Below are positions 23,557 through 35,761 of a stretch of 64,000 bases of DNA, piece after piece. A program made the position numbers and the translations under genes. The stretch is from Heliocybe sulcata. Lineage: Eukaryota; Basidiomycota; Agaricomycetes; Gloeophyllales; Gloeophyllaceae. The notes beneath the pieces are model-generated. The model was not told the origin of the DNA, did not search any database, and saw only the letters and a list, made by a program, of their open reading frames with translations. The stretch spans positions 312,864 through 376,863 of the forward strand of contig ML213528.1 of assembly GCA_004369045.1 (NCBI GenBank), given 5' to 3'. Within the stretch, counting starts at the first letter, position 1, and each line of letters starts with the position of its first letter.

Positions 23557-24121
23557 CCCGGGTATAGGGCCTAGCGGTCGTTCAGAACCAGTTGGTGGTT
23601 GGAGGTGCTGGAGAAAGTCACTACAAGTGCATCTGCAGCCGACGTTGTAAAGAACAGGGGATTTCGCTCATCACGATAGCCGAGTATCCGAATTGTTGGT
23701 CCGCCTCGGCCAGCGCAGTCTTAGCAACGGCGTCATTTACACGTATCTCAATCTCGGAGGGTGAGTCGCGTTCAAAGACTTCGATATAACATTTAGCTCA
23801 GGCGGAATATATCGTTGCTGAGGATCAATCCATGCAGCGTAGCATATGTGGCAGCAAAATTAACTGCAAGGGTCCGATCAGGAAGGGCGCCACCTGTCAG
23901 TGCCAGTTTGGAACCCGCCGACGGGACAATATTCAGACATCAGCTGCACCGTCACCCCACAACGCCTACTGTAGTTGGTGGAACAAGCATACAACGCCCT
24001 TGCCTTTTACTAGGGCGTTCCGTGTTCCACCTTCATACGCCGAATCCATAATTTCTTAACTCCTCAGGACATTCCTGAACCATACCGTTTTATTACTGCG
24101 AGTTGTATTTCATTTTTTCGT
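23557..24121. other. Intergenic, no supported gene
   Basis: Upstream region of the glycosyltransferase. Two short plus-strand frames (23592-23789, 23832-24059) contain several cysteines, but without a signal peptide or a joinable intron they are not called. Confidence 0.4.
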
Positions 24122-31992: not shown

Positions 31993-34887
31993 ATGACTAG
32001 TCCTCCACCTCGTCCTTCGACAAGTCCTCTTGTGTCGCGTAAACCAGTGTCTGGGAGCTCTCCGTCACCTTCCCCAAGTCAAGGAAGGAATCCTGTCTCT
32101 CTAAGGCTCTATAAGGTACTCGGTGCTGGTTTTGAGGATGAACCGACCAAGGAGGCTCTCCGCACGTTGTCTGAGCTGTACGGCGCCACTACAGCTAACG
32201 GGACTCGGGCGACGCTTGTGAATGGCAAGGCCACGAAGGAAGACCACCAGGATGACTTTGACTCGGATGACGGTGATAGCGAAGAGGACACGTCTGAGGA
32301 AAGGAAGCTTTCGCTGGGTCCATTCTTGTCCGATGAGGTGGTTGCGCCTACCGGGGCTGCGGCTCACGCCAGAAAGAATCTGAAGAGGGATATAGATGTC
32401 AAGCTTGCTGGCAGTAGTCGAAAGTTTCTTTCGGCGTTGGGAGGGGTCGATCAAGTGAGTAGTCGTTGCTTCGGGTGTGAATGGATCGTCATCCATCTCA
32501 TCACCGCCTACTGCTGGCTTGATTATGATCCATAATATCTTTTGTATCTACCCTCATACAATCACAACTTGTAACAGAAATTGGACGCACTCCAAGAGCA
32601 TATCACAACAATGCGCGCGCAATGCGATCAAGCGCATAGCCAACTCCAGACGACAAATGACGCCTGTAAGTCCTTGCTCGACCAGGCAGGCAATTTGCGT
32701 CAGGAAAGGTGAATGTCCCTGTCACAAGCGCAACAGTGGTGATCTGACCGAGCACCTAGGGATACGGTTGCCTCGCAGCAGTCCATCTTGAATCTTTTTC
32801 TGGCGCGGTTTACTTTGACTTCCGAAGAGGTCACCGCTCTTACTTCCCGGGATGTCCCGCCTGGGAAGCGTTTCTTTGCTGCCATGGATAAGGCGGTGAA
32901 GATCCGGGAGGACTGCCGAGTTCTGATGTCCGTCGATGGTCCTACTAAGGCCGGGTCAGTGGAATCTCATGAGTAGTGATGAACCGAACACCGTGCTGAT
33001 ACTTAGTAGACTCGATATCATGACTGCAACGTCTTCAAACCTGGAGCAAGCTTATGACAAGATATTTAGGTATCTGACCAGCGAATTCCAGACTCTTGGA
33101 CGTGGCAATAGGGATCGAGAGAGAAGTGTGGATCCGGATGCCAATCTAGAGGCTTCTCCGACGCTGAAGGAAGCTGTCCGCAGGCTACGAGATCGACCAG
33201 AGCTACTTTCGTAAGTCTTCCTGTATGGGTTGTGTTGTCCTTGTCTCACATACGCATATTTCAGGGATGCGCTCGCGGTGCTGTCACAGACAAGACAGTC
33301 CACCTTGTTAGCCACTTTTCTTGATGCGCTTACTCGTGGCGGGCCATCTGGTCTTCCCCGGCCTATCGAACTACACGCGCACGACCCTCTGCGGTACATC
33401 GGCGACATGCTAGCTTGGCTCCACCAAGCTATAGCTGCTGAGCGTGAGTTTATGGAGAGCTTGTTCGGGCTGGGAAGAGAAGGGGCAGGGAGGATGATAG
33501 GCAGTGTTAGAAAGTTTGAGAAAGGGAGGATGGGAGAGGCTGAGGAGTGGGTTGGGGATATGGTTGATAAGAATGTTGGAAAGCTGTCTGGTCCTCTCAA
33601 GGTAAGATATACCTGTGCTGATGCATGCGGTCGCTGCTCACAACTGTTTGCAGCTCCGAGTGCAACAAACTGTGCGATCACAAGAGAGCCCTATCCTTGC
33701 GAACAAAATCGCGAATCTCCTAAAATTCTATGAACTGACGGTGCGGAGAACAATTGGCGAAGAGGCGGCTTTGTCAGAGGCTCTGAGAGAGTATGCTGAT
33801 GAATGTTGCTTACCGATTGCGAGCTAATAACGGCTATAGGATGAGCGATGTCTCCAACAAGGTCTTCTTTGACGCCCTCGAAGCACAAGGCCGTGCATTG
33901 TTACGAGTAATCCTGGTTAGTCGTCCTTGGCAGATCTCAGCCTTACGGATCGTCTGCTCATCCCTGGCTGGATATAGGATCTCAACGACGCCGCACTCGC
34001 TCCTCCAGCGCCAGTCCAAGATCATATGCAAGCGCTTCGTGATATTCTGTCTATGTACGATTCGTCTCGACTGGATGACTCCAGTGCTCCCGAGGCAGAG
34101 GAGCCCGTCGGAAACGGGGCAGCGGAGTCGTCTGCGGATTACGGTGTTGAGCGGGTGTTGGATGTCATGATTGACCCTGCGCTCGAAGTTTGCCTGACGG
34201 CAGCTGAGGAGAAGAAGAGAATCAGGCCGACGTGGGACGGGCCTGTGTTCGTCCTCAACTGTCTAACCTACCTCCAGGTGCGTTCACCTGGTGTCGGGTC
34301 GCCGCCGGTCCTTGACGAACCGCTCATAATTTCGTACCTCGCATGATAGGACGTTCTTGAACCCTATGCTTTCGCCTCCACCAAGAGAGAGTCGCTAAAT
34401 GCAATGATAGAGACGAGGGTAAACCAGCTCGCGGAAGAACATTACCAGGACTTGTTGAAGGATACAGGTTTGAATGTCATCGTTGCCGCTATTGAATCAA
34501 AGCCCGCAGGAGTAAGTAGTCTTTCTGTCATAGCGCAACCACTGAGCAAAATCGAATCTGCCTCCCGAACAGGAACCGCTCTCACATGTCGACACGGCGC
34601 AACCGCACGAGCTCTCAGCCGTTCTGCAGAAGTTCTCGACATGGCTATCCGGTCTTGAGGTCATGCATTCTCCTCGACTAGCCCGCTTGGCGGTGCAGCG
34701 CTTGCACTCTCAGATACACCAGACGGCGTTGGCCCGGCTGGCGAGGACATATCAGAGTATTTGTGAGGAAGTGAGAAAGCCGGAGAATAGATATGAGGCT
34801 GCAAGCACGTTACTTGGAGGGCAGCGACCATTTGGGCAGATTCATTTGCTTAGACAGATTTTCGGGTTAGGGGACGAGGATATGTAG
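31993..34887 (+). CDS. COG6: Conserved oligomeric Golgi complex subunit 6
   Basis: Ten exons: join(31993..32454,32578..32708,32760..32954,33010..33210,33265..33601,33654..33790,33840..33915,33978..34277,34350..34511,34573..34887), 771 residues, phases consistent. The N-terminus is Ser/Pro-rich, then [20 protein letters not shown] opens the COG6 domain. A coiled-coil region follows around [18 protein letters not shown]. Then come [28 protein letters not shown], the conserved [40 protein letters not shown] and a C-terminal [20 protein letters not shown]6 belongs to lobe B of the COG tether, which captures retrograde vesicles at the Golgi. It starts 201 bp after the stop of the E1-alpha gene on the same strand. 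Intron 1 (123 bp) is longest. An acidic insert ([17 protein letters not shown]) near residue 85-100 is specific to this protein. Confidence 0.92.
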
Positions 34888-35304: not shown

Positions 35305-35761
35305 GTTTCCATAGGACCCGGGTGACTACTATATATGTCTGTCGGGTTTTTTGCATTTTTGAGGGCGAAAAATTGGCCGTATGTCTGTCGGAAATAGCAT
35401 TTTTCAGGCTTCTGAGAGCGCTCATGAGGGAAATGTCTGTCGGATATAGCATTTTTGAGGGCCGCGGGATGCTAGACCAGGCCTGGCGGGCAGAATATTA
35501 CCGGTTGGGCAGTCGTATAGATCCGCCTTCATGGCGGACGGCGGGAAGCGCTCTGACTTAAGGTCGAAAACTTACCGAAGACACTGAAAAATCGCTGAAA
35601 ACGTCTTTCTGCGACCCGCCGTAGCGCCGGATAAGGCGTGGGAATGCGAAATGTCTGTCGGAAATAGCATTTTTGAGTCCAGTTTGGCCGCATTTTTGAG
35701 GTCGATTTGGGGCGATTTTCCCGACAGACATACATAGTAGTCACCCGGGTCCTGTTTCCAT
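35305..35761. mobile_element. MITE: 441-bp element with 34-bp TIRs and 8-bp target duplication
   Basis: The element spans 35313-35753. Its left end (35313-35346) begins AGGACCCGGGTGACTACT and its right end (35720-35753) is the reverse complement with one mismatch. The flanks carry a perfect 8-bp direct repeat, gtttccat, at 35305-35312 and 35754-35761, the target site duplication. There is no transposase gene. The interior holds four copies of tgtctgtcgg (35336, 35382, 35434, 35652), mostly followed by aaatagcatttttgag. An 8-bp duplication fits hAT or Zisupton/KDZ-type DNA transposons (known for these families), so it is likely mobilised in trans by one of these. The near-perfect TIRs and perfect duplication point to recent insertion. 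Confidence 0.92.

Follow-up and report, generated by a model that had tools for sequence, protein, structure and literature searches.

A small non-autonomous DNA transposon family with AGGACCC ends and 8-bp target duplications in Heliocybe sulcata

Introduction

A target site duplication of 8 bp is usual for hAT transposons and has also been reported for Zisupton in one account (PMC12730594), which describes the agaricomycete Kyakuja elements with 7-bp duplications and without terminal inverted repeats (TIRs). A second paper (PMC12810828) gives the active Cryptococcus element KDZ1 both TIRs and 8-bp duplications, with duplications of 4-8 bp for KDZ2 and KDZ3, TIRs of 139-241 bp for KDZ1-3, and a length of ~9-11 kb for the Cryptococcus KDZ elements; lengths of 9-11 kb and above are given for KDZ elements there and in PMC12477816. 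MITEs and non-autonomous elements such as maize Ds, for which common ends with different interiors are described (PMC3260210), are short elements with TIRs and subterminal repeats, in groups that agree in their ends and not in their interiors.

Here we describe an element from a window of 64,000 nucleotides of Heliocybe sulcata (contig C26, 312864-376863). It resembles maize Ds and MITEs in all of these respects and in that no transposase was found in it, but differs in that eight copies were found, without an autonomous partner. We consider it, with a probability of about 0.9, to be a short non-autonomous cut-and-paste DNA transposon without a recognisable protein.

Structure of the element

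The element is complete and is directly adjoined on both sides by GTTTCCAT, a perfect 8-bp duplication. Its features, and the gene upstream of it, are as follows (window positions).

33215-34884, + strand: reading frames of the COG6 (Golgi complex subunit 6) gene, C-terminal part (Pfam COG6_C in three frames)
35305-35312, no strand: target site duplication, left copy, 8 bp, GTTTCCAT, exact match to 35754-35761
35313-35753, no strand: complete non-autonomous DNA transposon, 441 bp (TIRs, duplication, further copies)
35313-35346, + strand: left TIR, 34 bp, pairing with 35720-35753 at 33/34 positions
35720-35753, - strand: right TIR, 34 bp, partner of the left TIR
35754-35761, no strand: target site duplication, right copy, GTTTCCAT, identical to the left copy

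The sole mismatch between the TIRs is at TIR position 21, where the left TIR has A and the right one G. Not one of 1000 dinucleotide-shuffled versions of the element had ends pairing with 12 or fewer mismatches over 34 positions. When the window was scanned for 12-bp TIRs next to an exact 8-bp duplication (≤1 TIR mismatch, spacing 300-9000 bp), two rows were returned, namely the 441-bp element and its own internal shadow. Folded as DNA, the element strand was stabler than every one of 100 shuffles (z -7.84), as its TIRs predict. An earlier note on this DNA had claimed a complete short transposon with singly mismatched TIRs and an exact 8-bp target duplication, all of which holds, and the 441-bp stretch is confirmed as a genuine small non-autonomous transposon.

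The element starts ~430 bp past the end of the last COG6-matching frame (34887), and four frames downstream gave no match above a Pfam cut-off, with two weak sub-cut-off matches in one of them. Elsewhere the window carries a U5 spliceosomal RNA gene (23967-24081; Rfam RF00020, 48.9 bits), three frames that match the fungal protein kinase family PF17667 (8757-10220, 16125-17984, and 48722-50257), and an open frame of 658 aa that matches retrotransposon gag (PF03732; 61278-63251).

Copies in the genome

The genome searched comprises 31.6 Mb in 51 contigs. It holds at least eight copies, the DNA search scoring the best candidates only, and pattern searches added none.

C26:348176-348616: the window element, 441 bp
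C14:509097-509537: 441 bp
C25:4589-4986: 398 bp
C31, near 183129-183443: ends damaged
C7:764162-764827: 666 bp
C19:139563-140228: 666 bp
C26:183901-184559 (C26b): 659 bp
C6, from 445996: single end only

Both ends are recognisable in seven of these eight copies, and five of the seven lie between perfect 8-bp duplications, each different (GTTTCCAT, GTCTGCCC, GTTCGAGG, TCATACAC, and GGCATACT); the other two, on C25 and C31, have no intact duplication. When the 1000 bp to the left and to the right of each of the eight copies were compared, the flanks of different copies were not similar (blastn, E ≤1e-3). Because the duplications differ and the flanks are unrelated, the copies are independent insertions and hence a transposon family. 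The earlier note had proposed a genome search with the element and its TIR, and had held that a lack of other copies would count against it; the search yielded the eight. Its term MITE suits the size, the ends, and the absence of coding capacity, and dispersed copies with different duplications (five perfect, with unrelated flanks) likewise agree with it, but high copy number, another MITE feature, is lacking: eight is low for a MITE, and three pattern searches found none more.

Some copies have unusual surroundings. The one-ended copy on C6 (L022 4978-5974) lies between 19-bp direct repeats, TGTTATGCCGCACGTGACC, unlike the usual 8-bp duplication, and carries within a subterminal motif an insert bounded by the 9-bp repeat CAAAAATGC (849 bp apart). 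The C25 copy (L027) and the C26:183901 copy (L025) have inverted repeats on either side, of 91 bp at 98.9% and 55 bp at 92.7%, respectively, and may sit inside other inverted-repeat elements.

Subterminal repeats and subgroups

Two repeated motifs lie in the subterminal regions, which also contain the stretches held in common with the longer copies.

35313-35465, no strand: left 153 bp common with the 659/666-bp subgroup, candidate transposase-binding region (86-88% identity to C7, C19, and C26:183901 over query 1-153)
35336-35345, + strand: TGTCTGTCGG repeat 1, inside the left TIR
35382-35391, + strand: TGTCTGTCGG repeat 2, then AAATAGCATTTTT
35434-35443, + strand: TGTCTGTCGG repeat 3, then ATATAGCATTTTT
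35645-35753, no strand: right 109 bp common with the 659/666-bp subgroup, candidate transposase-binding region (88-89% identity, query 333, or 336 for C7, to 441)
35652-35661, + strand: TGTCTGTCGG repeat 4, then AAATAGCATTTTT
35667-35700, + strand: two of five GCATTTTTGAG motifs
35721-35730, - strand: TGTCTGTCGG repeat 5, inverted, inside the right TIR

TGTCTGTCGG thus occurs five times in the 441-bp element, four times on the + strand and once on the - strand, with two of the five within the TIRs. The earlier note had read tgtctgtcgg with aaatagcat four times; the repeat is real, but of the four + copies only two are followed by AAATAGCAT and one by ATATAGCAT, while GTTTTTTGCAT follows the copy in the left TIR. 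The other three of the five GCATTTTTGAG motifs, counted with up to one mismatch, start at 35353, 35397, and 35449. The commonest 10-mers of the element occur four times, against a maximum of two in 1000 shuffles. We regard the subterminal motifs as candidate transposase-binding sites.

The copies of the 441-bp type and those of 659/666 bp have their leftmost ~153 bp and rightmost ~109 bp in common at 86-89% identity, and their interiors do not match. Within each subgroup the ends tend to be better kept than the interiors. The window copy and the C14 copy differ at 12/262 sites in the ends and 19/178 in the interior (p 0.021), and C7 and C19 each differ from C26b at 8/262 sites in the ends and 37/382 in the interiors (p 0.0009 each); for C7 and C19 the counts are 6/262 and 17/404, not significant (p 0.20). 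Better-kept ends in three of the four pairs, which within a group are not independent, would be expected if the ends hold sites needed by a transposase.

Age of the insertion

The A/G mismatch of the TIRs is present in all six copies compared (the C31 copy, with damaged ends, and the C6 copy, with a missing end, were left out), so that it is inherited and provides no clock for the insertion. Between the window element and its nearest copy, C14, 31 of the 440 aligned sites differ (K2P 0.075). When the changes were polarised with the C25 and C31 copies, 20 (18 substitutions and 2 indels) fell to the window copy and 9 to C14, with 4 undecided. None of the 20 changes of the window copy lies inside the TIRs. 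If the 18 substitutions over 440 sites had all followed the insertion, the 84 bases of TIRs and duplication should have received ~3.4 of them, but they show none (chance ~0.03, hand calculation); part of the divergence of the window copy therefore probably predates the window insertion. The left flank (400 bp) matched only its own locus in the genome, and no paralogous empty site was seen. That the element was recently inserted, as the earlier note had it, is weakly supported: the perfect duplication and the unchanged TIRs speak for it, but the TIR mismatch is inherited and the nearest copy is 31/440 sites apart.

Coding capacity and the search for a partner

No Pfam match at E ≤1 was obtained for two frames overlapping the window element or for five frames from the window and C7 copies, a selection that takes in both subgroups and part of the short reading frames. 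As in MITEs, no transposase coding capacity appeared in the frames scanned from either subgroup.

We looked for a transposase-bearing copy with the 441-bp and 666-bp elements, the long TIR (3 mismatches), an 18-bp TIR (2 mismatches), the subterminal motif, and a paired motif, and all matches belonged to the same eight copies. The TIR 18-mer (≤2 mismatches) had 13/13 of its matches in known copies, with two matches for the reversed control pattern, and the subterminal motif (15/15) and the paired motif (11/11) behaved alike, with none for either reversed control. The full-length copy with a transposase and the same ends that the earlier note had suggested looking for was thus not found by TIR and motif patterns in this assembly, which may be incomplete and has some stretches of N, and in which such patterns would miss a parent with more diverged ends. 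The subterminal motif had no exact match in prokaryote contigs and the TIR none in virus contigs, which has little bearing on a fungal element. The letters of the TIR were absent from the literature searched, where AGGACC likewise led to nothing relevant; this comparison covered papers, and the family may have a named entry in Repbase or Dfam.

A second family with AGGACCC ends

The same genome holds a second non-autonomous family with the terminus AGGACCC, represented by C25:3101-4041 (L059) and eight more copies. C25:3101-4041, from the flanking DNA of the C25 copy of the 441-bp-type family, is 941 bp long, ends in AGGACCCCCGATAATAGGTATC, contains repeated TTTTGTCCGGA motifs, and is bounded by the exact 8-bp duplication TTTTTACC (read for this one copy only). 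A search with the TIR of this family gave nine copies of 831-941 bp with 18/18 ends paired and none for the control, and there was no long copy among the nine. The two families are alike in the AGGACCC start, in a TIR of similar length (~37 bp in the second), in the 8-bp duplication (one copy), and in a repeated subterminal motif, and they differ in the remaining TIR and the motif (CCGATAATAGGTATC and TTTTGTCCGGA in the second) and in the length of 831-941 bp. That the two families agree in terminus, 8-bp duplication, and layout suggests that one type of transposase may serve both, seven common bases alone being weak evidence.

Discussion

The structure of the copies is consistent with cut-and-paste movement in trans. 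A transposase made elsewhere would bind the 34-bp TIRs and the subterminal TGTCTGTCGG and GCATTTTTGAG motifs and excise the element, and reinsertion at staggered cuts 8 bp apart would create the 8-bp duplication.

An inverted repeat that arose by chance or by segmental duplication, with no transposon involved, might seem to agree with the low copy number and the failure to find a transposase, but it is refuted by five sites with different perfect 8-bp duplications and by the unrelated flanks of the copies, and we give it almost no credence. The question is rather which transposase moved the transposon, for which the earlier note had offered hAT or Zisupton/KDZ. If the element were a MITE derived from hAT and mobilised by a hAT transposase of the same genome, this would account for the 8-bp duplication and, as in maize Ds (PMC3260210), for common ends with different interiors, and the genome has nine PF05699 (hAT) matches. 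At four of these nine loci, however, the hAT domain lies between paired TIRs flanked by a perfect 8-bp duplication, and these elements start TAGTG (three) or TAAAG (one), none AGGACCC; the remaining five loci gave no ends, and two of those five stretches contain N. No hAT transposase was thus found between AGGACCC ends in the nine loci, and the termini of the four definable elements are not those of the present family. On account of these TAGTG/TAAAG ends we disfavour hAT, place it behind KDZ, and consider it unlikely as the mover.

The other half of that suggestion, a non-autonomous KDZ element of Zisupton or Dileera type moved by a KDZ transposase of the same genome, stands as our best guess, one that we put somewhat short of even odds. 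The family has the 8-bp duplication described above for Zisupton and Cryptococcus KDZ1 and has TIRs, and the genome has 21 matches to the KDZ transposase PF18758 in ~11 places. On the other side, at none of ten KDZ loci was the KDZ match enclosed by a TIR and a 7- or 8-bp duplication, a test too short to be fair because ~1.5 kb was read on either side and KDZ elements reach 9-11 kb, and AGGACCC was absent from the same ten loci within that distance. The KDZ locus adjoining the window, when read further, gave a single imperfect pair, probably by chance, and the eleventh place (L057) gave no pair in a general scan. The TIRs of Cryptococcus KDZ1-3 are much longer than the 34 bp found here, with no ends seen in common, the duplications of KDZ2 and KDZ3 vary in length, and Kyakuja departs from the present family in both its duplication and its lack of TIRs. 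Another lineage with 8-bp duplications, whether MULE, P, or an unnamed one, is also tenable when all of these are taken together, and we would put it, like KDZ, at rather less than an even chance. The MULE domain PF10551 has five matches in the genome, and the one locus read (998 of 6001 bases N) had no spanning TIR and duplication. It is improbable, in our judgement, that the two AGGACCC families represent a terminal class of their own among fungal DNA transposons with 8-bp duplications, served by a transposase lineage with undescribed ends that was perhaps lost here while its passengers remained.

Several other repeats were encountered at these loci. The four hAT-domain elements with TAGTG or TAAAG TIRs and perfect 8-bp duplications are L053 6262-7365, L054 6514-7366, L055 2764-4192, and L056 865-6053, and three of them are only 0.85-1.4 kb long. 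AGGTCCGGGGCGACGA, found near several KDZ and hAT matches, was considered as a related TIR (4 mismatches) and rejected, since it lies inside a longer conserved stretch and belongs to another dispersed repeat. An AGGACC pair at L052 with a near-duplication (2/8 mismatched) was put down to chance, its TIRs being unmatched past AGGACC. A conserved stretch around gatggctgcgAGGTC(C/A)GGGG, mostly near KDZ or hAT matches, recurs at window 8744 (- strand), L023, L037/L056, L038, L039, and L044 and is a dispersed repeat.

Significance

The family is otherwise an ordinary kind of mobile DNA. It gives the fungal DNA transposons one more defined family, in which the ends are placed exactly and the repeats are candidate binding sites. 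The two families that end alike, neither with a partner found in the assembly, provide a testable case of passengers outliving, or becoming separated from, their transposase.
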